From Skermanella rosea (lineage in GTDB: Bacteria; Pseudomonadota; Alphaproteobacteria; Azospirillales; Azospirillaceae): 64,000 nt of DNA. Location: assembly GCF_016806835.2 (NCBI RefSeq), contig NZ_CP086111.1, positions 1,285,001 to 1,349,000 on the forward strand, given 5' to 3'. A program made the position numbers and the translations under genes. Position 1 is the stretch's first letter. The number at the start of each line of letters is the position of its first letter. Shown piece by piece: positions 35,768 to 51,003 of the stretch. A model generated the notes under the pieces. The model saw nothing but the letters and a program-made list of their open reading frames with translations, made no database searches and was not told the DNA's origin.

Positions 35768-35891
35768 TCCCGAGGTACGAGTTGCTTCAGCTATATCATA
35801 AAAAGTTAGTCAAACCTTACTTGAGCCCCCGGAAACCTATACGAAAGTTTGAGGTGGTCCGCGGCCCGGCGGAAGGGCGGAAGCGGTTGCC

Positions 35892-36401
35892 ATGATCCTC
35901 CCGGACGTCCTTGCCCCCGACCTCGACCTCGTGCTGTGCGGGACGGCGCCCAGCCGCGCCTCCAAGGAGGCGGCCGCCTATTACGCCAAGCCGGGAAACC
36001 GCTTCTGGCCGACGCTGCACCTCGTCGGCCTCACGCCCCGCCTGCTGAAGCCCCATGAATACCCCGAAGTGACCCGGTACGGGCTGGGATTGACCGACCT
36101 GTGCAAGACGGAATGGGGCAGCGACCAGGAGTTGACGAAGCACTGCTTCGACGTCTCAGGCTTCGTCGCGAAGATCGACCGCTACCGGCCGGCCGCGGTC
36201 GCCTTCGACAGCAAGAATGCTGGCAAGACCTTCTTCCGGCGCGCGGCGGTCCAGTACGGTCTCCAGGAGGAGACCCTGTTCGGCGCCGCGATCTTCATCG
36301 TGCCGTCGCCGTCGGGCCGCGCGCGCAGCCACTGGGACACGGCGCCCTGGCAGGAACTGGGCGAGTTCGTGGCCCGGCGCCGCGCCGCCCGCCGGCCCTG
36401 A
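35892..36401 (+). CDS. Mug-type mismatch-specific DNA glycosylase (G:U/T)
   Basis: The product is 169 aa of the uracil-DNA glycosylase superfamily. The active-site block is VLCGTAPSRASKEAAAYYAK followed by PGNRFWPTLH, and the minor-groove reading loop is FIVPSPSGRAR. These match the Mug/TDG family, which removes uracil or thymine mispaired with guanine. It has no operon partners; it is transcribed away from the two-component pair. Confidence 0.9.
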   Translation: MILPDVLAPDLDLVLCGTAPSRASKEAAAYYAKPGNRFWPTLHLVGLTPRLLKPHEYPEVTRYGLGLTDLCKTEWGSDQELTKHCFDVSGFVAKIDRYRPAAVAFDSKNAGKTFFRRAAVQYGLQEETLFGAAIFIVPSPSGRARSHWDTAPWQELGEFVARRRAARRP

Positions 36402-36641
36402 CCGCGAGCGGCCGCGACGGGGCGTCGCTATGCCCTGCGTATTACCCCTTTGGTCGTAATTGGCGATAGACCTGTGCCTGCGGTTCTGGTAACAGACAGG
36501 CAACGGGACAATCCTTCACACCCGGAAGTTTTATTTATTTAGAGAAAAAAGCATTGGCTGGTCGGCAGGCGGGACGGTGCGCCGGGGTCGCCGGGGTCGG
36601 CGGAGCCGTCGGTCCGACCGGACCGTGGGGGTAGATGGGAC
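36402..36641. promoter_or_regulatory. Region upstream of the chemotaxis cluster
   Basis: This 240-base gap should contain the promoter of the thirteen-gene cluster. Visible elements are an AT-rich block around 36529-36550, a tandem GCCGGGGTC repeat near 36582-36599 and a 6-bp hairpin CGGTCC-GACC-GGACCG just before the first gene. No confident sigma factor motif was found. Confidence 0.35.
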
Positions 36642-36965
36642 GTGGCCGATTTGTTGCCCCTGATTCATTCGGAGAACGAGGCAGGCAAGGCCACCTTGAG
36701 CCTTCCGGACGATCTCGACCTGCCGGTGGCCGCCTCCCTGGTGGAGAGCCTGCGGGCCGCCTTCAGCGAGTATTCGGACATCGTCGTGATCGCCGCGACG
36801 GTGGAACGGGCAAGCACGGCCGCCGTGCAGGCGCTGGTGGCGGCGACCCGGCACGCCGAGGGAACCGGCCAGCGCTTCGCCATCGCCGCGCCGTCGGATG
36901 TCCTGACGGACGTGTGCACGGACCTCGGCCTGGCCGGCTGGCTTAACGAGTGGAGCCTGAAATGA
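36642..36965 (+). CDS. STAS-domain protein of the chemotaxis cluster
   Basis: The product is 107 aa from a GTG start. The fold pattern and the block ERASTAAVQALVAATRHAE correspond to the phosphorylation loop and helix of STAS (SpoIIAA-like) proteins; Ser-Thr stands at the usual phosphosite, but the canonical DSSG is replaced by ASTA. It is the first gene of the cluster and overlaps cheY by four bases. It is a likely partner-switch protein linked to the ATPase at 47054 or to receptor arrays. Confidence 0.8.
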   Translation: MADLLPLIHSENEAGKATLSLPDDLDLPVAASLVESLRAAFSEYSDIVVIAATVERASTAAVQALVAATRHAEGTGQRFAIAAPSDVLTDVCTDLGLAGWLNEWSLK

Positions 36966-37327
36966 AGAAGAAGGTGCTGACCGTCGACGACTCGCGGACC
37001 ATGCGCGAGATGGTCTCGTTCACCTTGCGCGGTGCCGGGTTCGACGTCGTCGAGGCCATCGACGGACAGCAGGCGCTGGTGGTCCTGGCCAGCCACAAGG
37101 TCGACCTGATCCTGGCCGACCTGAACATGCCCAACATGGACGGCATCAGCCTGATCCGGAAGGTCAGGGCCAGCGGCGGCCACCGCACCGTCCCGATCCT
37201 GATGCTGACGACGGAGTCGGACGACGCCAAGAAGCAGGAGGGGCGGGCCGCCGGGGCGACGGGATGGATCGTCAAGCCGTTCAATCCCGAGAAGCTGATA
37301 CAGGTCGTGCAAAAGGTCATGGGCTGA
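36962..37327 (+). CDS. cheY: Chemotaxis response regulator CheY
   Basis: This is a 121-residue single-domain receiver. VLTVDDSRTMREMVSF holds the acidic pocket, Asp53 in LILADLNMPNMDG is the phosphosite, and Lys is in GWIVKPFNPEKL. It receives phosphate from the adjacent CheA. The ATG overlaps the STAS gene stop, and cheA starts seven bases after its stop. Confidence 0.95.
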   Translation: MKKKVLTVDDSRTMREMVSFTLRGAGFDVVEAIDGQQALVVLASHKVDLILADLNMPNMDGISLIRKVRASGGHRTVPILMLTTESDDAKKQEGRAAGATGWIVKPFNPEKLIQVVQKVMG

Positions 37328-37334
37328 GTCGGCC

Positions 37335-39470
37335 ATGACGGGCGCCTACCTCGACGACCTCGACCGCTTCAAGGCGACCTATTTCGACGAATGCGCCGAA
37401 CTCCTCGCCGTCGCCGAAGCGGGGCTGCTGCGCCTGTCGCCGCAGAACATCGACCTGGATGAGATCAACGCCGTGTTCCGTGCCGTCCACTCGATCAAGG
37501 GCGGCGGCGGCACCTTCGGCTTTTCCCAGCTGGTGGCCTTCACCCACGAGTTCGAGGCGGTCATGGACCGCCTGCGGTCGCAGCAGATCGGCGTCACGAC
37601 CGAGCTGGTGGATGTCCTGATCCAGGCCAACGACGTCATGGCCCGGCTGCTGACCTGCGCGCGCGACGGGCTGGCGGTTCCGGCCGGCCTGGCCGACGCG
37701 TCCGCCTCGGACCTCAAGCGCTTCCTCCAGAAGGACGCTTCCGGTCCCGGCGCGCCGGCTCCGGCGCCTCACCCGGCCGCGGCGCGGACGGCGCCGGCGG
37801 CGGCGCGCAGCTTCGTCATCTATTTCATGCCCAAGAGCGACCTCCTGCTCAGCGGCAACGAGCCGGCCTTCCTGCTCCGGGCCCTGAAGCGGCTCGGCCA
37901 GGCCGAGGTGGTCTGCGACATGGGGCGGGTCCCGCCGCTCTTCGAGCTGGATGGCGAAAGCCTTCACCTGTTCTGGCAGATCGCCCTGACCGGCACCACC
38001 GACGAGGCGGCGATCCGCGACGTCTTCGAGTTCGTCGTGGACGACTGCCAGGTGGACATCGTCGAGACCACCGGCTCCGCCGACGGCGGGGAGGAGGAGG
38101 CGTTCGGCGTGTTCGCGGAGAACCTGCCCTATGTCCCGCCCGGCCAGCTGACCGTCTACGAGGCCGGCGCGGTCGACGGCGCGCAGGCAGCCCCGGCCCG
38201 GCCGGAAGGCGGCGGCGCGGGACCGGGTTCCGGCACCTCGGCCGGCGGCGGCGGACTGGGCGGCCACACCATCCGGGTCGACCTGGACAAGGTGGACAGG
38301 CTGGTCAACCTGGTCGGCGAGATGGTCATTACCCAGGCGATGATCAGCGAACAGCTCCGCGACGTGCCGCCTGGAACGCTCCAGCAGCTGGTCGAAGGGC
38401 TGGAGGAGTTGAGCCGCCACACCCGCGAGCTCCAGGAGAGCGTGATGGCGATCCGGGCGCAGCAGGTCCGGTCCGTGTTCTCCCGCATGCCCCGGCTGGT
38501 CCGCGAGGTCGCCGCCCAGACCGGCAAGGAAGTCATGCTCGCCACCTCGGGGGAGACCACGGAGGTGGACAAGACCGTGGTCGAGAATTTGGTCGACCCG
38601 CTGACCCATATGATCCGCAACTCGATCGACCACGGCCTGGAAACGCCGGAGGAGCGGGAGACGATCGGCAAGCCGCGCAGCGGGACGGTCCATCTCTCCG
38701 CGCAGCACCGGTCCGGCCGGATCGTGATCGAGGTGGCCGACGACGGGCGGGGCATCAACCGGCAGCGGGTGCTCCAGAAGGCGGTCGAGCAGGGGCTCGT
38801 CCCCGCCGGCGCCGCCCTGTCGGAGGAGGAGATCGACAACCTCATCTTCCTGCCCGGCTTCTCCACCGCCGACGCCGTCTCGGCGATCTCTGGGCGCGGC
38901 GTGGGCATGGACGTCGTCCGGCGCAACATCGCCAGCCTGGGCGGGCGGATCGGCGTCCATTCGACGCCGGGCGTGGGCACGCGCTTCGTGCTGTCGCTCC
39001 CCCTCACCCTGGCCGTGCTGGACGGCATGGTCATCTCGGTCGGCGAGCAGCGTTTCGTGCTGCCGCTGACCAACATCATCGAAAGCCTGCGGCCCCGCAG
39101 GGCCGACCTGCAGAGCGTCGCCAACCAGTGCGACGTCATCATGGCGCGCGGCGAGTACGTGCGTCTGGTCTATGTCGACCGCCTGTTCCGGATCGACGGC
39201 GCGATCGGCGATCCGACGCGGGGCCTGGTCGTCCTGGTCGAGACGGAGGAGGGCGGGCGCCTCGGTCTCGTGGTGGACGAGGTGCTCGGCCAGCAGCAGG
39301 TCGTCATCAAGAGCCTGGAGAGCAACTTCCAGCGTCTCGACGGCGTCTCCGCCGCGACCATCCTGGGCGATGGTCGCGTCGCCCTGATCCTCGACGTCGC
39401 CGGCCTGCAGAGCATGAGCCGCAACACCCCTGCACGCGCGATCCCCGCCGCCGCACTGCCCGCCGCCTAG
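37335..39470 (+). CDS. cheA: Chemotaxis histidine kinase CheA
   Basis: The product is 711 aa. The P1 domain carries His52 in FRAVHSIKGGGGTFGF. A second module around residues 155-250 (FMPKSDLLLSGNEPAFLLRA) is P2-like. The P3 dimerisation helices include RLVNLVGEMVITQAMI, the P4 ATPase domain contains IRNSIDHGLETPEER and GRGVGMDVVRRNI, and the P5 CheW-like domain closes the protein. All catalytic boxes look intact. An Ala/Pro-rich linker separates P1 from the next module. Confidence 0.97.
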   Translation: MTGAYLDDLDRFKATYFDECAELLAVAEAGLLRLSPQNIDLDEINAVFRAVHSIKGGGGTFGFSQLVAFTHEFEAVMDRLRSQQIGVTTELVDVLIQANDVMARLLTCARDGLAVPAGLADASASDLKRFLQKDASGPGAPAPAPHPAAARTAPAAARSFVIYFMPKSDLLLSGNEPAFLLRALKRLGQAEVVCDMGRVPPLFELDGESLHLFWQIALTGTTDEAAIRDVFEFVVDDCQVDIVETTGSADGGEEEAFGVFAENLPYVPPGQLTVYEAGAVDGAQAAPARPEGGGAGPGSGTSAGGGGLGGHTIRVDLDKVDRLVNLVGEMVITQAMISEQLRDVPPGTLQQLVEGLEELSRHTRELQESVMAIRAQQVRSVFSRMPRLVREVAAQTGKEVMLATSGETTEVDKTVVENLVDPLTHMIRNSIDHGLETPEERETIGKPRSGTVHLSAQHRSGRIVIEVADDGRGINRQRVLQKAVEQGLVPAGAALSEEEIDNLIFLPGFSTADAVSAISGRGVGMDVVRRNIASLGGRIGVHSTPGVGTRFVLSLPLTLAVLDGMVISVGEQRFVLPLTNIIESLRPRRADLQSVANQCDVIMARGEYVRLVYVDRLFRIDGAIGDPTRGLVVLVETEEGGRLGLVVDEVLGQQQVVIKSLESNFQRLDGVSAATILGDGRVALILDVAGLQSMSRNTPARAIPAAALPAA

Positions 39471-39480
39471 GATAAGACAG

Positions 39481-40023
39481 ATGGCAACAGTCCCCTCGGC
39501 CGCCCTGCCGGCCGTTCCGCGAGGTCAGGCCGGACCGGCTTCGGCCGAGGAACAATACGTCACCTTCACCGTCGGGACGGAGGAGTACGGCGTCAACATC
39601 CTGTCCGTGCGCGAGATCCGCGGCTGGACGCCGGAGACCAAGCTTCCCAACATGCCAGACTACGTGCGCGGCGTGGTCAACCTGCGCGGCATCATCATTC
39701 CGATTTTCGACCTGCGCGCCCGCTTCGGCGGTAGCCAGACCGAGGTGACCAAGCGCCACGTGGTGGTGGTCCTGCAGGTCGGCGAACGCACCCGGGGCAT
39801 CCTGGTGGACGCGATTTCCGACATCCTGACCGTCGCCCACGACGCGGTGAAGCCGCCGCCGGACATCGACAGCGGGCTGATCGACCAACAGTACCTGAGC
39901 GGGCTGGTCACGGCGGAGAACCGCATGGTGACCCTGCTGGACGTGACCCGCCTGTTCGCCGGGGACGCCGTCGAGGTGCTCGCTTCCCATCCTATCCAGA
40001 TCCCGCATCAGGCGCAGGCCTGA
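39481..40023 (+). CDS. cheW: Chemotaxis coupling protein CheW
   Basis: The product is 180 aa with a single CheW domain: YVTFTVGTEEYGVNILSVRE, then NLRGIIIPIFDLRARFG and GILVDAISDILTV. It links receptors to CheA P5. Its N-terminal ~20 residues are a Pro/Ala-rich extension. It lies 10 bases after cheA and 24 before the receptor gene. Confidence 0.96.
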   Translation: MATVPSAALPAVPRGQAGPASAEEQYVTFTVGTEEYGVNILSVREIRGWTPETKLPNMPDYVRGVVNLRGIIIPIFDLRARFGGSQTEVTKRHVVVVLQVGERTRGILVDAISDILTVAHDAVKPPPDIDSGLIDQQYLSGLVTAENRMVTLLDVTRLFAGDAVEVLASHPIQIPHQAQA

Positions 40024-40047
40024 GCAGAGCCGCAAGGGGATTCCACC

Positions 40048-42765
40048 ATGTCCGTCACCGATCGAACCTCCGCCCCGGCTCGGCTCGGCATCAAAAAGCG
40101 CCTGTGGCTCGCGTTCGGCCTGATGGTCGGCCTGCTGGTCGCCGGCTTCGGCTATGGCGGATACAGCCTGATGGCGACCCAGGCCCTTGTCCATCTCCTG
40201 AGCGACATCGGGGAGGAGGCGAGGTTCGCCAAGGACCTGGAGTCCGATATGGTGGGTCTCCGCATCACCGCGCGCAACTTCGCGTACAGCGGAGACCAGA
40301 GGCTGCCGCCGGTCGTCCGGGACCTGCACGCCAAGCTGCTGGGCCACATCGGCACCACCAAGAAGGCGGTCGACGACCCGATGCGCCTGCGGCTGGTGGC
40401 CGACATCGAAGCGCTCGCCGCCGACTACCTGGTCAACTTCGAGAAGCTGGTGGACCTGCGGACCCGGCAGGACACCCTGCTGCGCGAGCGGATGGAGCCC
40501 TTGGCCGACAGGGTCTTCGGGCACTTCGCCGAGCTGAAGGACAAGTCCGCGGCCGCCGGCGCGATCGCCGCGTCGTTCGCCGCCGCGGAGGCGGAGGAAC
40601 ACTGGCTTGTCGCGCGGCTGGTAGCCGAACGGTTCCTGACCAGCGGGGACCAGTCGGCCCGGCAGAAGTTCGATGACAACATCGCCGAGCTGCGCCTGCA
40701 TCTCGAACAGTTCGACGCGGAACTGAAGGATCCGAAGCTGCAGGAGGTCAGGGCCGCTCTCGCCGAGGGGGTCAAGCAGTTCACCGCCGGTTTCAACGAG
40801 ATCCTGTCGAGCAACGTGGAAATCCTTCGGCTGCGCGACGACGTCCTGCTCAACGTGGGCACGGCGACCTCGAAGAAGGCGGTCGAGATCGTCAACTCGG
40901 CGGAAGCGAGCCAGACGGAAATCGAGGCCACCGCGGCGGCGCAGGCCAGGACCGCCCTGACGATCACCGTGATCATCGGCGTGATATCCACCCTGCTCGG
41001 GATCATCGCCGCCCACCTGATCTCGCGCAGCATCATCACCCCGGTCAACGCGCTCCGCAAGGTGATGTCCGACCTGACCGACGGCGATCTCGCCGTCACG
41101 GTTCCCGGCACCGCCGACCGCGACGAGCTGGGTGACATGGCGCGCGCCGTGGATGCGTTCAAGACCGTCGCCGTGGCGGCGGTGCGGACCCGGATCGGCC
41201 TCGACAACGTCAGCGCCAACATCATGATGTCCGACGCGGACGGCAAGATCGTCTATTGCAACCGGGCGATCATGAGCATGTTCGGCGCGTGCGAGGCCGA
41301 CCTGCGCAAGAGCCTGCCGGCCTTCGACTCGAAATCCCTGATCGGGACGAACATCGATGTCTTCCATCGCGATCCGTCGCATCAGCGCCGGCTGCTCGGC
41401 GGGCTGACCGGCAGTCACAAGGGCATCGCCAAGGCCGGCGGCCATACCTTCCAGGTCATCGCCCATCCGGTGTCCGGCCAGCGCGGGGAACGTCTCGGCA
41501 CCATCATCGAATGGCGCGACCTGACCGAGGAACTCCAGGTCGAGGAGGAAATCGGCGGCATCGTCGCCGGCGCGGTTCGGGGCGACTTCTCCGCCCGGAT
41601 CGAACTGGCGGGCAAGAGCGGATTCTTCCTGACGGTCAGCGAGGGCATCAACGATCTGGCCGAGAATGTCTGCGCCGTCGCCGAGGATCTGGCCTCCGTC
41701 CTCCAGTCCCTTTCCCACGGCGACCTTACCCGCCGGATCGAGAAGGACTACGAAGGCGTCTTCCAGCGCCTCAAGAGCGACTTCAACTCCACGGCCGAAA
41801 AGCTCTCGGACATCGTCGGCCGGATCAGCCAGTCCACGGCCGCGATCTCCGAAGCGGCGCGCGAGGTTTCGGCGGGAAGCCTCGACCTGTCCGAGCGGAC
41901 CGAGCAGCAGGCCTCCAGCCTGGAGGAAACGGCGGCCAGCATGGAGCAACTCGCCGCGACGGTGCGCAGCAACGCCGACAATGCCAAGCAGGTCAACGAG
42001 GTCGCCTCGACCGCCCGTACCGCCGCCGATCGCGGCGGCAAGGTCGCCGGCGATGCGGTGGACGCCATGCGCAGGATCGAGAGCTCCAGCCAGAAGATCA
42101 GCGACATCATTGGCGTGATCGACGAGATCGCTTTCCAGACCAACCTCCTGGCGCTGAACGCGGCGGTCGAGGCCGCCCGGGCGGGCGACGCCGGACGCGG
42201 CTTCGCGGTGGTGGCGCAGGAGGTCCGGACGCTGGCCCAGCGCTCGGCCCAGGCGTCGAAGGAGATCAAGGCCCTGATCATCGACAGCAACACCCAGGTG
42301 CGCGACGGCGTCGACCTCGTCGGAAATGCCGGCGGCGCGCTCTCGGACATCGTGGCGGGCGTCAGCCGGGTCGCCGACCTGGTCGCGGAGATCGCCCGCG
42401 CGACCGCCGAGCAGGCCAACGGCCTGGACGAGATCAACGGCGCCGTCGCCCAGATGGATGAGATGACCCAGAAGAACGCGGCGCTGGTCGAACAGAGTTC
42501 GGCGGCGGCGCGCTCGATGGAAGGGCAGGCCCATGATCTCGGCTCGCTGATCTCGTTCTTCAGCGTCTCCGGTGGCCTGCCCGCTTCCGAAGATCTCCCG
42601 TCGCGGCCCGCGCCGGTCCCGATGCGCAAGACCGCGGCCGGCGGGCGTTCCGCCCCCCGCCAAGCGGCCCGCCCCGCCGTCTCCGAAGCCAAACGGGTCG
42701 TCCCGCACCCGACCACCCTGCGCCGGGTGGAGACCAATGACGACCCCGACTGGAAGGAGTTCTGA
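40048..42765 (+). CDS. Membrane methyl-accepting chemotaxis protein with HAMP and PAS
   Basis: The product is 905 aa. TM1 is [20 protein letters not shown], a ~270-residue helical periplasmic domain follows, and TM2 lies in [25 protein letters not shown] domain, a PAS domain ([19 protein letters not shown]) and a second HAMP-like segment precede the signalling hairpin tip [19 protein letters not shown]. The protein ends PDWKEF, which fits the xWxxF pentapeptide that tethers CheR/CheB. It is the main receptor of this cluster; the ligand is unknown. Confidence 0.94.
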
Positions 42766-42846
42766 GCGGACGCGACAGCTCCGGCTCGTGACGTTTCATG
42801 ACCTTTCATGACATCTGGCGACATGCCCCCGCCCGGGAGGGATCGA

Positions 42847-43755
42847 ATGACTGAAGCGGCGCACCGGAGCGCACCGGCCGGCCGGGAACGGGAAGGAAGC
42901 CTGTCCCGGTCCACCGGCGAGCGCGAATTCCATTTCACCCGTGGGCATTTCGACCAGATCGCGGCGCTGCTCCAGCAGCTCACGGGCATCCATCTCGCTC
43001 CCCACAAGGTGGAGATGGTCTATTCCCGCCTTGCCCGCCGGCTGCGGGACCTGGGCATGGCGGACTTCGACGCCTACTGCGCCTTCCTGGCGTCCGAGTC
43101 GGGGGAAAGCGAGATCGGCCTGCTGGTCAATGCCCTGACCACCAACCTGACCCGCTTCTATCGGGAGCCCCATCACTTCGAGCACTTGGCCACGGTGGTG
43201 CTGCCCTGGATCCAGGAACGGCAGGCAGGCGCCGCCAAGCCGCGCCTGCGGATCTGGTCGGCGGGCTGCTCCTCGGGGGAGGAGCCCTACACGATCGCGA
43301 TGACCGTGGCGTCCACGCTGCCCGACCTCCACCGCTGGGACGTCCGCATCCTGGCGACCGACATCGACACCCACATGGTCGAGACCGCGCGCCGGGGGCT
43401 TTACGCTGCGGACGCGGCAAGCGCCATACCCGCGGCGGTCCGCTCGCGCCACACCGCGGAGCAGCAGCAGGGGACCCGCCGGGTTCTCTCCATGGGCGAG
43501 AGCCTGCGCCGGCTGATCACTTTCAAGCCACTGAACCTGCTTGAAGACTGGCCTATGCGCGGACCCTTCGATGCGATCTTCTGCCGCAACGTGCTTATCT
43601 ATTTTGACAGGCATGGTAGGACGGAAGTGATAGGGAAGTTCCATCAACTCCTGGATGGCGATGGGCATCTCTATCTCGGCCATTCAGAGAGTCTCTACGG
43701 CGTTTCAGAACAGTTTCGCCAAGTGGGGCCGACCAGCTATCAGGCCATACCATGA
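42847..43755 (+). CDS. cheR: Chemotaxis protein methyltransferase CheR
   Basis: The product is 302 aa. CheR methylates receptor glutamates using S-adenosylmethionine. The N-terminal helical domain is followed by the Rossmann domain: LRIWSAGCSSGEEPYTIAM is the SAM motif, then ILATDIDTHMV, and FDAIFCRNVLIYFD is near the end. The ATG at 42847 was preferred to 42808 because a GGGAGGGA ribosome binding site precedes it. Its stop overlaps cheD by four bases. Confidence 0.95.
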   Translation: MTEAAHRSAPAGREREGSLSRSTGEREFHFTRGHFDQIAALLQQLTGIHLAPHKVEMVYSRLARRLRDLGMADFDAYCAFLASESGESEIGLLVNALTTNLTRFYREPHHFEHLATVVLPWIQERQAGAAKPRLRIWSAGCSSGEEPYTIAMTVASTLPDLHRWDVRILATDIDTHMVETARRGLYAADAASAIPAAVRSRHTAEQQQGTRRVLSMGESLRRLITFKPLNLLEDWPMRGPFDAIFCRNVLIYFDRHGRTEVIGKFHQLLDGDGHLYLGHSESLYGVSEQFRQVGPTSYQAIP

Positions 43756-44396
43756 AGCATGCCGTGCGCGCACTCGACGACCGCAGAGGGGGTGTTCCGA
43801 GCCTGGACGAGCCCAACGAAGGCTATTTCCATCCGGGCTTCCGGGCCCATGCCGTCAAGGTCCTGCTCGGCGAGCACAAGATCACCCAGCGGCCCGACGA
43901 GATGCTGGTAACCACCCTCGGCTCCTGCATCGCCGCCTGCGTCCGCGATCCGGTCCTGGGTCTGGGGGGCATGAACCATTTCCTGCTGCCGGAAGCCCCC
44001 GCCGGGAGCGACGGCGGGGTCGACGCCGCCGCGCGGTACGGCGGTGTCGCCATGGAACGCCTGATCAACGAGATCCTGCGGCGGGGCGGCCGGCGCGACC
44101 GGTTGGAGGTGAAGGTGTTCGGCGGCGCCAAGGTGATCGCCAGCAGCAATCCCATCGGGCGCCGCAACGCTGAGTTCGTGCTGGGCTTCATCGCCGCCGA
44201 GGGGCTCACCCTGGCCGCGCAGGACCTGGGAGGCACCCTCGCGCGGCGGGTCCATTATTTCCCGAACACCGGGAAGGTGATGCGTCGCCTGATCCGGCAG
44301 GACGCGGTGGAGGACACCATCCGCAGCGAGATGCGGTTCATGTCCGACCTGGGCGCCAAGCCGGTCGAAGGCGAAATCGAGTTGTTCGGGGACTGA
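43752..44396 (+). CDS. cheD: Chemoreceptor glutamine deamidase CheD
   Basis: The product is 214 aa. The catalytic Cys is in LVTTLGSCIAACVRDP and the His in GLGGMNHFLLPEA. CheD deamidates receptor glutamines. The C-terminus EGEIELFGD resembles the tail of the soluble receptor in this cluster (NVELF). The ATG overlaps the cheR stop, and its stop overlaps the cheB start. Confidence 0.95.
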   Translation: MKHAVRALDDRRGGVPSLDEPNEGYFHPGFRAHAVKVLLGEHKITQRPDEMLVTTLGSCIAACVRDPVLGLGGMNHFLLPEAPAGSDGGVDAAARYGGVAMERLINEILRRGGRRDRLEVKVFGGAKVIASSNPIGRRNAEFVLGFIAAEGLTLAAQDLGGTLARRVHYFPNTGKVMRRLIRQDAVEDTIRSEMRFMSDLGAKPVEGEIELFGD

Positions 44397-45445
44397 TGAT
44401 GGGCAAGCCGATCCGGGTCGCGATCGTGGACGACAGCGCGCTGATGCGCCGGATGCTCACCGAGGCGCTGGCCGCAGAGCCGGGATTCGAGGTGGTCGGC
44501 CAGGCCGCCAATCCCTATGAGGCGCGGGAGATGATCAAGTCGGCCAATCCGGACGTCCTGACGCTGGACGTCGAGATGCCGCGCATGGACGGGCTGACCT
44601 TCCTGGAGAAGATCATGACGCTTCGGCCGATGCCGGTGGTCATGGTCTCGACCCTGACCCGCGAGGGGGCCGACGCCACCGTCCGGGCGCTGGAACTGGG
44701 GGCGATCGACTGCATCGCCAAGCCCAACGGCGCCGAGGGGGAGCGCTTCGCCGACTTCCGCGACGAACTGATCGGCAAGCTGAAGGTGGCGGCCCATGTC
44801 CGCCTGGGGCCTCCCAGGACGAAGCCTGCGCGGGCCAAGGCGGGAGTCCGCGGCGGCAGCGGCCGGCTGATCGCGCTGGGTGCCTCCACGGGCGGGGTCG
44901 AACGGATCCGCGACATCCTGGAGGTGCTGCCCGAAGGATCGCCGCCGATCCTGATCGTCCAGCACATGGGTGCCTTCTACGTGCCCAGCTTCGCCGCCCG
45001 GCTGGACCGCCAATCCGCGCTGACCGTCAGGATGGCCGAGTCGGGCATGCGCGTGATGGCCGGCGAGGTGCTGATCGCCCCCGGCGACCGGCACATGGCG
45101 CTGCGCCGGGATGGCTTCGGCTATCTGTGCGAGATCGTCGACGGACCGCCGGTCAGCGGTCACCGGCCGTCGGTCGACGTCCTGTTCAATTCGGTCGCCG
45201 AGGTGGCGGGCGTCAACGCGGTCGGCGTGATCCTGTCGGGGATGGGGCGCGACGGCGCTTCCGGGATGGCGGCGATGCATGCCGCGGGAGCCTGGACGAT
45301 CGGTGAGAGCGAGCAGAGCTGCGTCGTCTACGGCATGCCCCGCATGGCCAAGCTGGCCGGCGGTGTCGCCGTGGAGATGCCGCTCGGGCAGATCCCGGCC
45401 GAGATGCTGCGCGCTGCGGCGGCCCCTGCCTCACGGTCGACCTGA
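44396..45445 (+). CDS. cheB: Chemotaxis methylesterase CheB
   Basis: The product is 349 aa: an N-terminal receiver with Asp58 in LTLDVEMPRMDG and a C-terminal methylesterase with the catalytic Ser in ALGASTGGVERI, His in IVQHMG and Asp in SGMGRDGASGMAAM. Phosphorylation by CheA activates demethylation of receptors. It starts at the overlap with cheD; a second ATG lies three bases later. Confidence 0.96.
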   Translation: MMGKPIRVAIVDDSALMRRMLTEALAAEPGFEVVGQAANPYEAREMIKSANPDVLTLDVEMPRMDGLTFLEKIMTLRPMPVVMVSTLTREGADATVRALELGAIDCIAKPNGAEGERFADFRDELIGKLKVAAHVRLGPPRTKPARAKAGVRGGSGRLIALGASTGGVERIRDILEVLPEGSPPILIVQHMGAFYVPSFAARLDRQSALTVRMAESGMRVMAGEVLIAPGDRHMALRRDGFGYLCEIVDGPPVSGHRPSVDVLFNSVAEVAGVNAVGVILSGMGRDGASGMAAMHAAGAWTIGESEQSCVVYGMPRMAKLAGGVAVEMPLGQIPAEMLRAAAAPASRST

Positions 45446-45468
45446 TGACGGACGGGGGAGACTGACCG

Positions 45469-46662
45469 ATGTCGTTCGGATTGTTGAAGAACATCGCCGG
45501 CAGCCGTTCCGATGCGCTTCCGGCGGCGATCCGCCCGGTTCCGGCTCCGACACCGGTGGCTGAACTGCCGGCCGACTCCGGTCATGACGAGTTGCTGGGC
45601 CGCTGGCTCGGCTTTTCCGAGCTTCAGAACCATTGCCTGGACGCCCTGGCGACCGAGGTGAGGCGGACCAGCGACCTGGTCGAGTCCAGCACGCTGGAGA
45701 TCAGTTCGCGGTTCCGCGACCTCGCCACTTCGGCGCGGGAGCAGACCAAGCGGGTCGAGGATATCATCGCGGTCGCCAACTCCGTCACGATCGACGGGGA
45801 GGCCATCCCGCTTGACCGCGTGGTCGCGACGATGCAGCAGATTCTGGTCGAGATGGTGAATAACATCGTCAACCTTTCCAAGCAGGCCATGACGATGGTC
45901 TATGTGCTGGACGATGTGGTCCGGGATGTCGGCGAGGTCGAGAAGAGCATCGCCGACATCGACACCATAAACCGCCAGACCAATTTCCTGGCGCTGAACG
46001 CGACCATCGAGGCCAGCCGCGCGGGCGAGGCCGGCAGGACCTTCGCGGTGGTCGCCAACGAGGTGCGTCACCTGTCCAAGGCGACCGGCGACCTTGCCGG
46101 CCGCATGCGCGACAAGGTCGGCGCGGTCGTCGTCGGCGTCCGGCGCGGCCACGAGATCCTGCGCGACATCGCGAACACCGACCTGTCGCCCCAGATGCTC
46201 GCCAAGGACCGCATCGACATGACGATGATGAGCCTGGTCGCGCAGAGCCAGCATTTCCAGAGCGTGCTCCAGGATGCGGCGCGGGTTTCGACCGAGATTT
46301 CCGCCCATATCAGCCAGGTCATCACCCGGATGCAGTTCCAGGATCTGGCCAAGCAGCGCCTGGACCATGTGATCGACGGCATGACCGTGATGTCGAACGG
46401 CCTGGGCGAACTGGGCGCGAGGACGCGCCTCGCCCTGCCGGCCGGCGCCCAGGCGGACTTCCCGCAGGAATGGGTGGACCAGCTGCTGTCCGGCATGACC
46501 TTGAGCGAGCTTCGCCAGCGCTTCGTCCGCCGCATGCTGCTGGCGGGCTCGGCGCTGGATGCCCACGGCGCGCTGGACCACGAGACGGAGGTCCCGGAAG
46601 CCGACGGCGTGGATCCGGGCCTGTCGGACGGCACGGACGACGATAATGTCGAACTCTTCTGA
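45469..46662 (+). CDS. Soluble methyl-accepting chemotaxis-type protein
   Basis: The product is 397 aa with no membrane segment. A long coiled-coil region surrounds the hairpin tip [20 protein letters not shown] and [20 protein letters not shown], the CheA/CheW contact. A further helical domain of ~150 residues follows, with an acidic C-terminus ending DDDNVELF. No known sensory domain is seen, so it may act as a cytosolic receptor or as an adaptor between the array and the partner-switch genes just downstream. Confidence 0.88.
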
Positions 46663-46724
46663 TCGCGCGTGAGATTGCCGGGCGGCGGCAGCGCATTCTG
46701 CCATTCATGGAGCGGTGTGTAGAA

Positions 46725-47030
46725 ATGGATTATCGTATCGAGCTGGATGACCTGGAAGCGCGCATCTTCGTCACGGGCCGCCTGACCTTCAACGACCATG
46801 GCAAGGTCCGGAGCATGATCCAGGAGATGGTGCAGAGCCATCCGAAGCGTCAGGTCATGATGATCGGCGGGCTGGAGTTCGTGGACAGCTCCGGGCTCGG
46901 CATGATCCTGGTCGCCCGCGAGGAGGTCGCCCAGGTCGACAAGAAACTGTTCCTCCGCGGGGCGCAGGGGCAGGTCAAGCGGGTCCTTTCGGTCGCCCAG
47001 CTGGACAAGATCGTGGATATCCAGGACTGA
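46725..47030 (+). CDS. STAS-domain anti-sigma factor antagonist
   Basis: The product is about 101 aa from the ATG at 46725, or 107 aa from 46707. The canonical phosphorylation loop is present: IGGLEFVDSSGLGMILVARE, with DSSG as in SpoIIAA/RsbV. Phosphorylation by an anti-sigma-type kinase and dephosphorylation by a PP2C are predicted. The kinase-type ATPase gene follows 23 bases later and two REC-PP2C genes come after it, giving a complete partner-switching set. Confidence 0.93.
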   Translation: MDYRIELDDLEARIFVTGRLTFNDHGKVRSMIQEMVQSHPKRQVMMIGGLEFVDSSGLGMILVAREEVAQVDKKLFLRGAQGQVKRVLSVAQLDKIVDIQD

Positions 47031-47053
47031 AGCCGATTTCGGACGATCCGGCC

Positions 47054-47776
47054 ATGCGGGCGAGCACGCTCTACGGTGTCGGACTGACAGCCGAGCACCT
47101 CCAGGAGATCGCGGCGCTCGTCGGCCGCGGCGGCCACCCCGTCGTCTGCGGCCTTCCGGCGGACGCCTGTGCCCGGATCGACGGCGCCGCCGTGCTCGCG
47201 GCGGACCTTGACCAAGCTTGCCTCAGCCAGGCCCTGGACCGGGGGGCCGGGGCCTGCATCGAGGTCGGTTCGCTCGACGCCACGACGGCGGCGGAGTGCG
47301 TGCGGCGTGCGGCGGGCTGCACGCTGTTCCTGTCCCTGACCACGGCGAGCGCCTATCGGCTGCCCGTGGCCCAGGCGGTGGTGGCCGTGATCGACGGGAT
47401 CGCGTCGCTCGGGCAGGAGAGGCGGGACGACGTCGAGCTGGCGCTCCAGGAAGCCATCAGCAACGCGGTGATCCACGGCAACTTGGCGGTATCGAGCCTG
47501 CGCGGCCCCACGCTGGCGGCGCTGGACGCCTTCTCCTGCGATCTCAACGAAAGGCTGGCCGATCCGGCGCTGGCGAACCTGCGGGTCGGGATCGCCGTTT
47601 CGATCGACGATGCGGAGATCGCCATCGAGGTGATCGACGAAGGTCCCGGTTTCGTGCCGAAGCCCCGGGCTCCGACGGCGGCGAGCGGGCGGGGCATCGG
47701 CCTGATCGAGTCCCTGGCGGCCGCATGGGAGTTGCTCGACGACGGCCGCCGGGTCCGGATGAGGTTCGCCCGATGA
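47054..47776 (+). CDS. Anti-sigma-type HATPase (SpoIIAB/RsbW-like)
   Basis: The product is 240 aa. A ~100-residue N-terminal region without clear family is followed by a GHKL ATPase domain: VELALQEAISNAVIHGN is the N box, VIDEGPGFVP the G1 box and SGRGIGLIESLA the G2 box. This is the serine kinase/anti-sigma family that binds STAS partners. It overlaps the first REC-PP2C gene by four bases. No sigma factor gene is seen in the cluster, so its other target is unknown. Confidence 0.88.
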   Translation: MRASTLYGVGLTAEHLQEIAALVGRGGHPVVCGLPADACARIDGAAVLAADLDQACLSQALDRGAGACIEVGSLDATTAAECVRRAAGCTLFLSLTTASAYRLPVAQAVVAVIDGIASLGQERRDDVELALQEAISNAVIHGNLAVSSLRGPTLAALDAFSCDLNERLADPALANLRVGIAVSIDDAEIAIEVIDEGPGFVPKPRAPTAASGRGIGLIESLAAAWELLDDGRRVRMRFAR

Positions 47777-49011
47777 ACGGCGGGATGGAGATGGCCTCCG
47801 CGGCGGCGCTGACCGAGCTCCGGCAGGTCGGGATTCTCGACTGCCTGATCCTGGTGGTGGACGATACCGACTTCAACCGCACCTTGATCACCGCGATGCT
47901 CCGGCAGGCGGGGTTCCGCCGGATCGAGCATGCGGTCGACGGCATCGACGCGTTGCGCAAGATCGACCATGAAATGCCTGATCTGGTCATCCTGGACATC
48001 GTGATGCCCGGCCTGGACGGGTTCGAGGTGTGCCGGCGCCTGCGCGCCGAGGAGCGATTCGCCGATCTGCCCGTCCTTGTCCAGACCGCTCTGTCCAATA
48101 CCGAGGACCGCAACAAGGCATTCCAACTCGGCACCACCGACCTGATAACCAAGCCGATCGACCGGAACGAACTGCTGGCCCGGGTCCGCATCCACCTGGA
48201 GAACCGGATGCTGATCCAGGATCTCCAGCTCTACCGCACCCGGCTGGAGAACGAACTGGCCATGGCGCGGGAGATGTACGGCCACCTGCTGCCGACCGCG
48301 GCGATCTTCGACCAGATCAGCCGCGACAGCGGCGTGCGCATCCGTCATCACCGGGCCGTTTCGTCCGAACTGGGCGGCGACATCTGGGGCGTCATCCCGC
48401 TGCCGGAGGGACGCTTCGGGCTCTATCTCCTGGACATGACCGGGACCGGCGTATCGGCGGCCTTGAACGCGTTCCGCATGCATACCGTGCTCCACGAACT
48501 GGCGCCGCTAGCGTCTTATCCCTCCCGCTTCCTGACCGAGGCCAATGCTCGCGCGGTCGGGCTGTTCGAGTCGGACGAGCGGGCGGCGATGATCTATGGC
48601 GTGGTCGATCCGACCGCCGGGACCTTCTCCTACACCACCGCCTCGGCCCGGCGGCCGATCCTGGTCCGGCACGGCTCCGACACGGCGACTCTGGGCGAGG
48701 CCGACGGCGCGCCGGTCGGACATGCCGCCGGGAGCGTCTACCGCACCCGCACCCTGACGTTCGGGCCGGGCACCATGCTGCTTCTCTACAACAATGCCGT
48801 GCTGACCGCCCTGCCGGGCGACGGCGGCCGGGCGGCGGAACGGGCGCTCGCCGACCTCGCTGTTCCGGCCCTGCAGGCGCCCGGCCTGGATGAGGCCTGC
48901 GACCGCATGGTCGCGGCGCTCGCCCGCGCGGTCGGCGACCGCCCCGGCCAGGACATGACCCTGGTCTTCCTGGCCAAGGATGCCTGTAATCCTCCCTGGG
49001 CGGAGCGGTAG
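47773..49011 (+). CDS. REC-PP2C (SpoIIE-type) protein with degenerate phosphatase site
   Basis: The product is 412 aa. The receiver (residues ~25-145) is intact, with Asp75 in LVILDIVMPGLDG and Lys in LITKPID. The C-terminal PP2C domain has lost metal-site residues: GGDIWG at 201-206 instead of GGDxxD, DMTGTG at 221-226 instead of DxxGHG, and YNNA at 339-342 instead of YSDG; one Asp (GQDMTLVF) remains. It is therefore probably a pseudophosphatase or regulator. The neighbouring paralogue keeps all of these residues. Confidence 0.88.
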   Translation: MNGGMEMASAAALTELRQVGILDCLILVVDDTDFNRTLITAMLRQAGFRRIEHAVDGIDALRKIDHEMPDLVILDIVMPGLDGFEVCRRLRAEERFADLPVLVQTALSNTEDRNKAFQLGTTDLITKPIDRNELLARVRIHLENRMLIQDLQLYRTRLENELAMAREMYGHLLPTAAIFDQISRDSGVRIRHHRAVSSELGGDIWGVIPLPEGRFGLYLLDMTGTGVSAALNAFRMHTVLHELAPLASYPSRFLTEANARAVGLFESDERAAMIYGVVDPTAGTFSYTTASARRPILVRHGSDTATLGEADGAPVGHAAGSVYRTRTLTFGPGTMLLLYNNAVLTALPGDGGRAAERALADLAVPALQAPGLDEACDRMVAALARAVGDRPGQDMTLVFLAKDACNPPWAER

Positions 49012-50190
49012 ATGAGCAGTTCAGCCTCCGCACCGGTCAATATCCGGAATGCCCGGATTCTGGTGGTCGACGACAACCGGGTGAACCGCCACCTGCTGGT
49101 CGCCGTGCTCCAGCGCGGCGGGTTTCCCCAGGTGGAGATGGCCGAGGACGGGATCGACGCCCTGGCCAAGATAGAGGCGAACGCGCCCGACCTGATCCTG
49201 CTCGACCTGATGATGCCGAAGCTTGACGGCTTCGAGGTGTGCCGCCGGCTGCGCAACGACGCCAGCCGCCGGGACCTGCCGATCCTTGTCCAGAGCAGCC
49301 TGTCCAGCTCGGAGGACCGGACCCGCGCCTTCTCCGTCGGAGCGACCGATTTCGTCAGCAAGCCGATCAACGCGACCGAACTGCTGTCCCGCGTCCGCAT
49401 CCACCTGGAGAACCAGGCGCTGCTGCGCGACCTGCAAGGCTATCGCCGCCGCCGTCAGGGCGAGCTGGCACTGGCCCGGAGCATGCAAGAGCGGCTGCTG
49501 CCGGCCCCCTCGCGGCTGCGGGAGACCGAGGCCGACCTGGGCCTGAGCCTATCGGCGCATTTCGAGCCGTCCTCGGAACTGGGCGGCGACTTCTGGGACC
49601 TGCGGCGCGACGGGCGCGGCAGGCTGATCGTCTGGCTGGTCGATTTCTCCGGCCATGGCGTCGGCGCGGCGCTCAACACTTTCAGATTGCACGCCATCCT
49701 GCGGCAGATGGACCTGAACGATTTCGATCCGGCGGACCATCTGCGAGAAGTGAACGAACGGGTCTGTCCGCTCCTGCGCAGCGGCCAGTTCGCGACCATG
49801 CTGGTCGGCGTGGTCGATGCCGAGAACAACACGTTCCACTACGCTTCCGCCGGGGCGCCGGCGCCGATGGTCTGGCAGGCGGGCGATGCCGCGCCGGAGT
49901 TCGGCGACAGCAGCGGCTTGCCGGTCGGCATCCTGGCCTCGACCCGTTACCAGAACCGCGACCTGGCCCTGCCGGTCGGCGGCCGGCTGTTCCTCTACAG
50001 CGACGGTGCCAGCGAGCTGTGGACCGCCGAGGATACCGTGCTGGGCGAGGAGGGGCTGCTCGACCTCGTCCGCGGGCACATGCACCAGGAGGAGGATGCC
50101 GGCTTCCTGGCCGGCCTGCTCGGCTCCCTCACCGCGCTGGGCAGCTTCGACGACGACGTGACCGCGCTGGTGCTGACCCGAAGGGCATGA
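49012..50190 (+). CDS. REC-PP2C (SpoIIE-type) serine phosphatase, active-site intact
   Basis: The product is 392 aa, a tandem paralogue of the preceding gene, starting directly after its stop. Receiver: ILVVDDNRVNRHLL, Asp65 in LILLDLMMPKLDG, Lys in FVSKPIN. PP2C domain: GGDFWD, VDFSGHGVGAA, LFLYSDGASELW and FDDDVTALVL supply the expected metal ligands. It likely dephosphorylates the cluster STAS proteins when its receiver is phosphorylated, by analogy with HsbR of Pseudomonas and CrsR of Shewanella. It is the last gene of the cluster. Confidence 0.92.
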   Translation: MSSSASAPVNIRNARILVVDDNRVNRHLLVAVLQRGGFPQVEMAEDGIDALAKIEANAPDLILLDLMMPKLDGFEVCRRLRNDASRRDLPILVQSSLSSSEDRTRAFSVGATDFVSKPINATELLSRVRIHLENQALLRDLQGYRRRRQGELALARSMQERLLPAPSRLRETEADLGLSLSAHFEPSSELGGDFWDLRRDGRGRLIVWLVDFSGHGVGAALNTFRLHAILRQMDLNDFDPADHLREVNERVCPLLRSGQFATMLVGVVDAENNTFHYASAGAPAPMVWQAGDAAPEFGDSSGLPVGILASTRYQNRDLALPVGGRLFLYSDGASELWTAEDTVLGEEGLLDLVRGHMHQEEDAGFLAGLLGSLTALGSFDDDVTALVLTRRA

Positions 50191-50202
50191 CGCGATCGAC
50201 CG

Positions 50203-51003
50203 TCACTCGTCGGCGATCGGGTCGTAGAAGGCGGCGGAGAAGCCCGCCTTGTCCCGGCTCTCCTCGTTGAAGGGACGCTTCAATCCGCCCTTGAAATGGG
50301 TGCGGACGAGGTTCTGCCAAGTGGGAATCGGCGGGATGTCCAGTTTGTCGCAGACATGCTCGAACCAGCGCCGGCCGGCGGCCACGTGGGTGATCTCGTC
50401 GTCGTGGATGATCTGGAGCGCGTCGGCCCCGGCATCGTCGCCGACGGTGCGCAGGTTCCGGATCATGGCGGGCGTCACGTCCAGCCCGCGCGCCTCCAGC
50501 ACCAGCGGGACGATGGCAAGGCGGGCGGCGAGGTCGTGGGCGGTGTCCCGGCTGGCCTGCCAGAGCCCATCATGGGCGGGCAGGGCGCCGTAATGGCTGC
50601 CCAGGTCGGCCAAGCGGCGGCACAGCATGTCGAAATGCCGCGCCTCGTCGTCGGCGACCTGGACCCAGTCGTCGGTGAAAGCCTTGGGCATCTCCGCCCC
50701 GAAGCGGGCGACGATGTCCCAGGACAGGTCGATGGCGTTCAGCTCGATATGGGCGAGGGCGTGGATCAGCGCGGTCCGCCCGGCGACGCTGCCGGCCTTG
50801 CGGCGCGGCGGCATGTCGCGCGGCTGGCGCAGCTCCGGATAGTCCGGACGCGCCGGCCGGTCGGGCGGGACCGGCGGGCCGGGCGGCTCGATCCCGGCCA
50901 GCGCGCCGGTCCGCCACTCCTCGGCGAAGCGGCGGGAGAGGCGGACCTTCTCGGCAGGATCGGCGGTGGTCAGGACGGTGACGGCGGCAGACCGAATACT
51001 CAT
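50203..51003 (-). CDS. DUF455 ferritin-like protein
   Basis: The product is 266 aa. HIELNAIDLSWD, then VQVADDEARHFDMLCRRL and IIHDDEITHVAAGRRWFEHV supply the Glu and His residues expected for a ferritin-like four-helix di-metal site, as in DUF455. Its function is unknown. The ATG overlaps the cysQ stop (ATGA), so the two genes are co-translated. It is convergent with the phosphatase gene, 12 bases apart. Confidence 0.88.
   Translation of the reverse strand: MSIRSAAVTVLTTADPAEKVRLSRRFAEEWRTGALAGIEPPGPPVPPDRPARPDYPELRQPRDMPPRRKAGSVAGRTALIHALAHIELNAIDLSWDIVARFGAEMPKAFTDDWVQVADDEARHFDMLCRRLADLGSHYGALPAHDGLWQASRDTAHDLAARLAIVPLVLEARGLDVTPAMIRNLRTVGDDAGADALQIIHDDEITHVAAGRRWFEHVCDKLDIPPIPTWQNLVRTHFKGGLKRPFNEESRDKAGFSAAFYDPIADE

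Follow-up and report, generated by a model that had tools for sequence, protein, structure and literature searches.

Stage-1 and stage-2 F7 systems, ancestral forms of the Escherichia coli chemotaxis system, have a role that was called unclear in an analysis whose gene-order part covers the gamma- and beta-proteobacteria only (PMC7184735; this and the other papers are cited here from partial text). In the gamma-proteobacteria, the stage-1 cluster was reported to comprise an anti-sigma factor antagonist, cheY, cheA, two cheW, an aer2-like gene, cheR, cheD, cheB, an mcpA-like gene, another anti-sigma factor antagonist and a serine phosphatase (PMC7184735), and Vibrio cholerae cluster III is a stage-1 case described as poorly understood (PMC7534058). 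In Azospirillum brasilense, the che4 operon was described as encoding nine proteins, of which six, CheS, CheA4, CheB4, CheR4, Tlp4a and Tlp4b, were named as detected (PMC8561660); Che4 belongs to class F7, with a PAS domain between HAMP domains 1 and 2 of Tlp4a (PMC6759762), and controls swimming reversals (PMC8100600, PMC8561660), and CheA4 affects the rpoN, nifA and nifH promoters via regulators not identified there (PMC8561660). Here, we analysed thirteen genes at positions 36642-50190, all on the plus strand, of a 64,000-nucleotide window from Skermanella rosea (the window being the whole stretch of DNA studied, G000:C1:1285001-1349000 of a 7.76 Mb genome; below, G plus a number denotes a genome, with G000 the window genome, and L plus a number a homologous stretch). 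These genes probably constitute the Azospirillaceae form of the ancestral stage-1 F7 operon, orthologous to che4, in which, as an earlier note on this DNA had proposed, a receptor array would act through CheA on a partner switch centred on a STAS protein.

Read 5' to 3', Pfam matches assign the thirteen open reading frames (ORFs) of the window's ORF list to STAS1, CheY, CheA, CheW, a methyl-accepting chemotaxis protein (MCP), CheR, CheD, CheB, a second MCP-type protein, STAS2, an RsbW-type ATPase and two proteins that join a receiver (REC) to a PP2C domain (PP2Ca and PP2Cb), with adjacent genes spaced by -4 to +62 bp, so that the tight, co-directional layout given in the earlier note holds. 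The first nine genes match che4 from CheS to Tlp4b (CheY4 and CheW4 being named elsewhere in the Che4 literature, and the CheD match being our own addition), and the window receptor, too, has a PAS domain between its first two HAMP domains; che4 differs in having been published as a nine-protein operon without the four downstream genes (PMC8561660, available text). Those four genes are linked to che4 in the Azospirillum genomes that we mapped. The order STAS-cheY-cheA-cheW-aer2-cheR-cheD-cheB-mcpA-STAS-PP2C is also that of stage-1 F7 clusters (V. cholerae cluster III and M. alcaliphilum; PMC7184735), from which the window departs by having one cheW instead of two and by the ATPase and a second REC-PP2C gene between STAS2 and PP2Cb. 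Because of its one cheW (39481-40023, PF01584 E=2.3e-38), against the two published, the operon is filed here as an alpha-proteobacterial variant of the stage-1 layout and not as gamma stage 1 itself; two adjacent CheW occur in L254 and L264. Whether this exact set had been described, which the earlier note could not say, can thus be answered: in essence it has, as the stage-1 F7 cluster (PMC7184735). Assignment of the window CheA to class F7 would follow from the published placement of A. brasilense Che4 and from the match of the window receptor to the NCBIfam Aer2 model (E=8e-147, 491 bits, short of the model cut-off of 1200).

The linkage between the chemotaxis part and the switch part is real and old. 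We searched 82 genomes of the order (one family) with the ATPase, CheA, PP2Cb and FliM, and found CheA (>600 bits, weaker matches being dropped as paralogues) in 57; PP2Cb of the window type was present in all 57 of these and in only 1 of the 25 genomes without this CheA (G058). Counted from the 57 CheA matches and 59 PP2Cb matches (E up to 7e-104), 52 of the 57 genomes have PP2Cb on the CheA strand, 6.9-10.4 kb downstream of CheA, which led us to reject a chance joining of two operons and identifies the two halves as one inherited unit, not as parts found unlinked in most relatives. Of the five exceptions, four come from fragmented assemblies in which the genes sit close to contig ends; the fifth (G036) is truly split, with the operon divided between two contigs (L183 and L184) at the receptor gene, receptor sequence on both parts and CheR to PP2Cb still together. 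The comparison of gene order that the earlier note had asked for, made on 20 homologous stretches hand-picked from the 71 genomes in which the ATPase had a match, gave all thirteen genes in the same order in 13 stretches and a one-gene difference in 4 (the membrane MCP is absent or a mere scrap in L043, L054 and L056, and CheD has moved in L058). Beyond the family, in a class sample of 289 genomes that includes the window genome and one relative, a REC-PP2C gene lies nearby on the same strand for 12 of the 25 CheA matches at E<=1e-140 (read by hand), and the McpA-like, STAS2 and PP2C genes stand at the end of all ten of those twelve loci that were mapped.

Within this operon, the McpA-like protein carries the more important of our two new claims. 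McpA-like proteins have been described as dispensable for the F7 array, as not assignable to a heptad class and as having a strikingly conserved C terminus without known role (PMC7184735). The window protein (Tlp4b-like, 45469-46662) has an MCP hairpin (MCPsignal, E=1e-22), a C-terminal half with MQFQDLAKQ, in which FQDLAKQ (D292, Q296) forms a CheZ/CheT-like signature, and the terminus NVELF; its description as a soluble receptor in the earlier note is thus borne out for the hairpin but weakened by the signature. The D and Q of D-x-x-x-Q are present in all 76 orthologues, all of which end in ELF (72) or DLF (4), in a set that holds near-duplicates, as do other counts here, because loci come partly from the same strains (47 ORFs covered to >60% at loci that had been selected by PP2C or CheA, among them that of the window, and 29 further sequences, 3 of the same class and 26 of other classes, from a set capped at 30 loci out of 48 genomes with a match). 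Sequences of other classes read QFEDMVTQ, QFQDMSSQ and similar at this site, and E. coli CheZ reads FQDLTGQ with D143 and Q147 (numbering checked), the residues that we take to be catalytic. Of 76 other MCP-type ORFs, a single one carries the motif, and it stands at the McpA position of its locus; ELF or DLF ends without the motif were seen in 2 of 122 MCP-type ORFs.

Profile comparisons point in the same direction. A model made from CheZ only (18 cores picked by FQDxxxQ from PF04344 matches, E. coli included, so that the motif is built in and the result shows that other MCPs do not match) ranked, among 7631 ORFs, only CheZ and McpA-like proteins better than E=0.28 (best McpA-like 4.6e-4; window genus 0.02 to 0.11). 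In the reverse direction, a model of the McpA core recovered CheZ of the family (3e-5 to 4e-3); the one further ORF that it returned below E=0.08 lies at a CheT-like position, and no ordinary MCP reached that level. A longer core model drew in ordinary MCPs through the shared hairpin. Alignment by hhalign placed McpA-like proteins and CheZ in register at E=1.3e-4, versus 0.56 for ordinary MCPs. Sinorhizobium meliloti CheT has DxxxQ and a predicted CheZ-like fold and was reported as active on one CheY-P (PMC12654446), and two ORFs at CheT positions align with the same D and Q as the McpA-like protein. In the free-standing switch module L052, the place that the McpA-like gene takes in che4, directly upstream of STAS2, is occupied by a gene for a true CheZ-family protein. 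The window genome encodes a second McpA-like protein (G000:C1:2091917-2092981, minus strand; L250:7918-9084) with LQFQDLAKQ and a VELF end, at 61% identity over 72% of the query, and no match to the other twelve window proteins was found in the 18 kb around it. In the literature searched, which covered few subscription journals, there was no report of a CheZ-like reading of McpA.

From these patterns we propose, as a tentative reading that falls a little short of an even chance, that the McpA-like 'receptors' of ancestral F7 systems may not be sensors but array-docked phosphatases of the CheZ/CheT type, combining an MCP hairpin with a D-x-x-x-Q helix and a CheY-binding end, that together with STAS and REC-PP2C they may constitute a transferable cassette for the output of CheA-type kinases, and that the Azospirillaceae may have added a receiver-pseudophosphatase to tune it. 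The trio seems to move as a cassette, because McpA-like, STAS and REC-PP2C genes also occur within a different che operon, the CheA of which is very large (L252, L256, L257 and L258, among 14 stretches of other classes that we picked from 44 such genomes).

The added gene is PP2Ca (47773-49011; REC and SpoIIE domains, PF07228 E=3e-27), which precedes PP2Cb (49012-50190; REC and SpoIIE, PF07228 E=1.3e-38, best solved match 3eq2). Both receivers are complete, in line with the phosphorylation that the earlier note proposed, and the receiver residues of PP2Ca (DD, D, T and K) are kept in all 26 sequences (29 before rows with identical first 300 residues were merged, as in all PP2C counts). We take four Asp residues of the PP2C domain to be catalytic and metal-binding: in PP2Ca, Asp 3 is lost in 26 of 26, Asp 1 in 5, Asp 2 in 9 and Asp 4 in 6 (with 6 further gaps), and in PP2Cb, Asp 1-4 are kept in 27, 27, 27 and 26 of 27 (one gap). 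Among 35 other REC-PP2C proteins, Asp 1-3 are kept in all, and the Asp 4 column is a gap in 13. Compared with eight sequences from other genera, the receivers of PP2Ca and PP2Cb have nearly the same mean identity (68.3 versus 68.4%), whereas the PP2C domain is less similar in PP2Ca (44.6 versus 60.0%), and PP2Ca forms a single clade (FastTree support 0.98). Since Asp 3 is lost throughout while the receiver is intact, PP2Ca is probably a pseudophosphatase, and the earlier note's 'two phosphatases' are not supported; that PP2Ca is old and has been kept suggests a regulatory role. No report of a REC-pseudophosphatase in a che operon was found in the same literature.

Upstream of this pair lie STAS2, a putative partner-switch substrate (46725-47030, alternative start 46707; PF01740 E=2.5e-11), and the RsbW-type ATPase, a putative STAS kinase (47054-47776; PF13581 E=4.8e-15). 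The D and S of the DS motif are present in 73 of 73 aligned STAS2 sequences, and the ATPase keeps the E and N of the N-box and both G-motif glycines in 52 of 52 and the G1 Asp in 51 of 52. In STAS1 (36642-36965, 107 aa, GTG start; PF13466 E=1.4e-10), which corresponds to CheS, the residue aligned with the serine is S in 22 sequences, T in 8, D in 2 and G in 1. STAS1 appears a less likely substrate than STAS2 because none of the 33 aligned sequences has the Asp of the motif and three have D or G in place of the serine; as an equal substrate it was set aside for the missing Asp, although S or T stands there in 30 of 33. The earlier note's view of both STAS proteins as substrates is therefore retained for STAS2 and weakened for STAS1.

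Fused relatives help to place the ATPase. CrsR-CrsA, which in Shewanella acts as a partner switch on RpoS, is encoded in the che1 locus together with Aer2 and McpA, and control of the switch by Che1 was inferred by the authors (PMC9855816); HsbR of Pseudomonas carries receiver, PP2C and kinase domains in one protein (PMC6482189). In three of three tested loci from other classes of the phylum (L252, L253 and L254), the protein at the PP2C position is REC-SpoIIE-HATPase_c_2; in four alpha-proteobacterial loci, a separate HATPase_c_2 protein (303-330 aa) is encoded next to PP2C, the two genes sharing a strand in L170 and L172 but not in L078 and L169, and in L177 such a protein lies between STAS2 and PP2C. 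Because the domain is fused elsewhere and separate beside PP2C in the alpha loci, the window ATPase most plausibly represents the third CrsR domain as a separate chain.

Several observations weigh against the McpA-like protein as a phosphatase and against CheA as the kinase of the switch. E. coli CheZ is not significant with the McpA-core model (E=1.3 to 7.7); the hhalign probability is only 26%; the Pfam CheZ cut-off of 30.7 is missed (the C-terminal half scores 16.1 bits and the full-length protein 7.9); and Foldseek, run with a structural model of mean pLDDT 67.6, returned MCPs and coiled coils, with no CheZ among the best 50 matches listed. Two other lines led no further: a search of the Protein Data Bank with the C-terminal part gave two unrelated chains only, and plasmid searches gave distant matches only. 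The window genome has seven CheZ-family matches, so a terminator of CheY-P exists anyway, and 82 of 82 family genomes have such a match, for which reason an absent CheZ, considered as an explanation for a phosphatase of the McpA type, fails for the Azospirillaceae. Four of the 14 McpA loci of other classes have no detectable STAS or PP2C neighbour. For the switch, phosphotransfer from CheA to the PP2C receivers is inferred from linkage; 13 of the 25 class-sample CheA matches have no REC-PP2C within reach, in some because the contig ends first; 3 of the 20 homologous stretches have the STAS-ATPase-PP2C part only; and this part was found without che4 in L046, L052, L053 and L070/L187. Among seven detached modules that we selected and scanned with their neighbours, a histidine kinase is present in only three (L072, L080 and L083), and none was seen in the neighbouring ORF scanned at L046, L053, L076 and L187; because such modules exist, four of seven without a histidine kinase in the scanned ORF, CheA is not obligatory for the switch. 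No sigma-factor target was identified.

Part of this evidence would fit an ordinary soluble receptor whose FQDxxxQ and ELF end are structural or an adaptor-binding tether, an explanation that we consider doubtful while granting it a sizeable minority of the probability: its hairpin is of the standard kind, the fold search returns MCPs, CheZ-family proteins are already at hand throughout the family, and Shewanella McpA clusters with the chemotaxis CheA3 and, when overproduced, raises swimming as other receptors do (PMC9855816). Such a receptor would nevertheless have to accommodate the invariant D and Q, the absence of the motif from 75 of 76 other MCP-type ORFs, a rank above every other non-CheZ ORF with the CheZ-only model, the use of DxxxQ by CheT, a reported CheY phosphatase (PMC12654446), and a protein dispensable for the F7 array whose conserved end is left without explanation (PMC7184735). 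The detached modules and the histidine kinases close by in three of them would likewise suit a plain chemotaxis operon merely co-transcribed with an unrelated partner-switching module, its PP2C receivers being served by another histidine kinase, as would the published account of Azospirillum che4, which treats it as an operon of nine proteins and does not count the four extra genes (PMC8561660). This is unlikely in view of the linkage in the family, in 12 of the 25 class-sample matches and in published gamma-proteobacteria (PMC7184735), and of the McpA-STAS-PP2C genes inside the different che operon of L252, L256, L257 and L258, the large CheA of which means that a tie to CheA-type kinases recurs.

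Two further alternatives concern the switch itself. PP2Ca might be an active phosphatase with atypical metal ligands, giving two phosphatases with perhaps different substrates (STAS1 and STAS2); Asp 1 and Asp 2 are kept in 21 and 17 of 26, the PF07228 match is still clear, and STAS1 could be a substrate because S or T stands at its serine position in 30 of 33. We regard this as quite improbable, given that Asp 3 is lost in every PP2Ca yet kept in every PP2Cb (27 of 27) and in all 35 other REC-PP2C proteins, that the PP2C domain diverges faster than its own receiver and that STAS1 lacks the motif Asp throughout, with D or G at the serine position in three. Classical sigma-factor control, in which the ATPase would be an anti-sigma factor released by STAS2 so that transcription becomes dependent on CheA, is rather unlikely but has more in its favour: the ATPase domain resembles RsbW/SpoIIAB (TIGR01925 E=2.8e-4, far below the model cut-off), CrsR-CrsA controls RpoS in Shewanella (PMC9855816) and CheA4 affects the rpoN, nifA and nifH promoters (PMC8561660). 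The operon, however, has no sigma gene, and HsbA, by acting instead on a diguanylate cyclase or FlgM, shows what else a STAS protein can do (PMC6482189). We know of no sigma partner for this ATPase.

What the sequences show directly is which genes are present, how they are conserved and which residues they keep, and a circuit consistent with this would run as follows. An Aer2-like receptor array would drive CheA4, which would phosphorylate CheY4 (acting on the motor, as known for reversals in A. brasilense), CheB (for adaptation) and the receivers of PP2Ca and PP2Cb. Phospho-PP2Cb would then dephosphorylate STAS2, the RsbW-type ATPase would rephosphorylate it, and PP2Ca, its catalysis lost, could, under control of its receiver, compete, act as a scaffold or serve as a sink for phosphate. 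Docked on the array, the McpA-like protein would end signalling by dephosphorylating, in the manner of CheZ/CheT, either CheY or the receivers of the PP2C proteins, and the state of STAS2 would set which partner STAS2 or the ATPase holds, so that the array would have a slow regulatory output in addition to the fast one to the motor. The earlier suggestion that the array sets STAS phosphorylation is therefore plausible, although its kind is already known, because Shewanella Che1 with CrsR-CrsA has been published as a parallel. That the output may not be motility is not supported, since che4 controls reversals in A. brasilense (PMC8100600, PMC8561660), and on these genetics we rejected an operon without motility output. 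The accompanying statement that no flagellar or sigma factor gene is nearby stands for the thirteen genes; in the surroundings only two neighbours were named (a UDG-type protein and a LuxR-type response regulator), and FliM is encoded elsewhere in the window genome (G000:C1:467358) and was found in 80 of the 82 family genomes, the window genome included.

The other chemotaxis genes are CheY (CheY4-like, 36962-37327; PF00072 E=1.6e-28, with phospho-Asp and K motifs kept), CheA (CheA4-like histidine kinase of 711 aa, 37335-39470; Hpt, H-kinase_dim, HATPase_c and CheW domains and a phospho-His motif), the Aer2-like receptor (Tlp4a-like, 40048-42765; HAMP-PAS-HAMP_2-MCPsignal, C-terminal DWKEF), CheR (42808-43755; PF01739 E=3.9e-64), CheD (43752-44396; PF03975 E=9.3e-27) and CheB (44396-45445; PF01339 E=4.4e-56, also PF00072). 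In the Azospirillaceae che4 loci L044 to L069, except L058, the Aer2-like receptor ORFs end without the xWxxF pentapeptide, which the window genus, L183 and other alpha-proteobacteria retain. Terminator-like sites were in no excess over chance in 35800-50600 (4 seen versus 5.0 expected from shuffled sequence). Among free-standing modules, L187/L070 (Hyphomicrobiales bacterium UR115) has the quartet STAS2-ATPase-PP2Ca-PP2Cb with no match to the window che proteins nearby and, upstream, an ORF without a Pfam match at E<=0.001. In Azospirillum canadense, a 561-aa reading frame downstream of a free-standing REC-PP2C paralogue (L060:15067-16749, minus strand) matches FliG_M, FliM and FliMN_C and so looks like a fusion of flagellar switch parts in a single protein; a FliM match lies in a long ORF beside the same free-standing module in G029, and one was found in G080.

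Although the kind of system is already known, the conserved pseudophosphatase and the CheZ/CheT signature of McpA-like proteins are new as far as the literature searched shows. The signature is directly testable and could explain why McpA-like proteins exist, and its residue pattern makes a simple assay possible for the role of these receptors and of their conserved C terminus, which was called unclear (PMC7184735). If McpA-like proteins are phosphatases, stage-1 F7 systems would gain a missing signal terminator and an output, and, with the cassette, a direct route would connect che4 with the effects that cheA4 has on transcription. The che4 operon of Azospirillum is genetically tractable, its four linked genes are candidates for the regulators behind the CheA4 effect on rpoN and nif promoters, and the effect of cheA4 on the rpoN and nifA promoters (PMC8561660) is a place to look for the output of the switch.

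Compared with systems described elsewhere, STAS1 resembles CheS of S. meliloti (via PMC12654446) as a small STAS protein beside cheY-cheA, and differs in standing in an F7 and not a rhizobial che context. The McpA-like protein shares with E. coli CheZ and S. meliloti CheT (the latter via PMC12654446) a D-x-x-x-Q in a long helix and an acidic-hydrophobic C terminus, but embeds this signature beside an MCP signalling hairpin. The switch differs from the SigB/SigF (RsbV-RsbW-RsbU) systems in having no cognate sigma gene among the thirteen genes, and is like that of Shewanella Che1 in lying inside a che locus with Aer2 and McpA (PMC9855816). With CrsR-CrsA and HsbR-HsbA, it has in common a receiver-controlled PP2C, a kinase domain and a STAS protein with a conserved Ser (PMC9855816, PMC6482189); what the gamma-proteobacterial counterpart unites in one REC-PP2C-kinase protein paired with CrsA or HsbA, the window distributes over separate kinase (47054-47776) and phosphatase chains, with a probable pseudophosphatase in addition.

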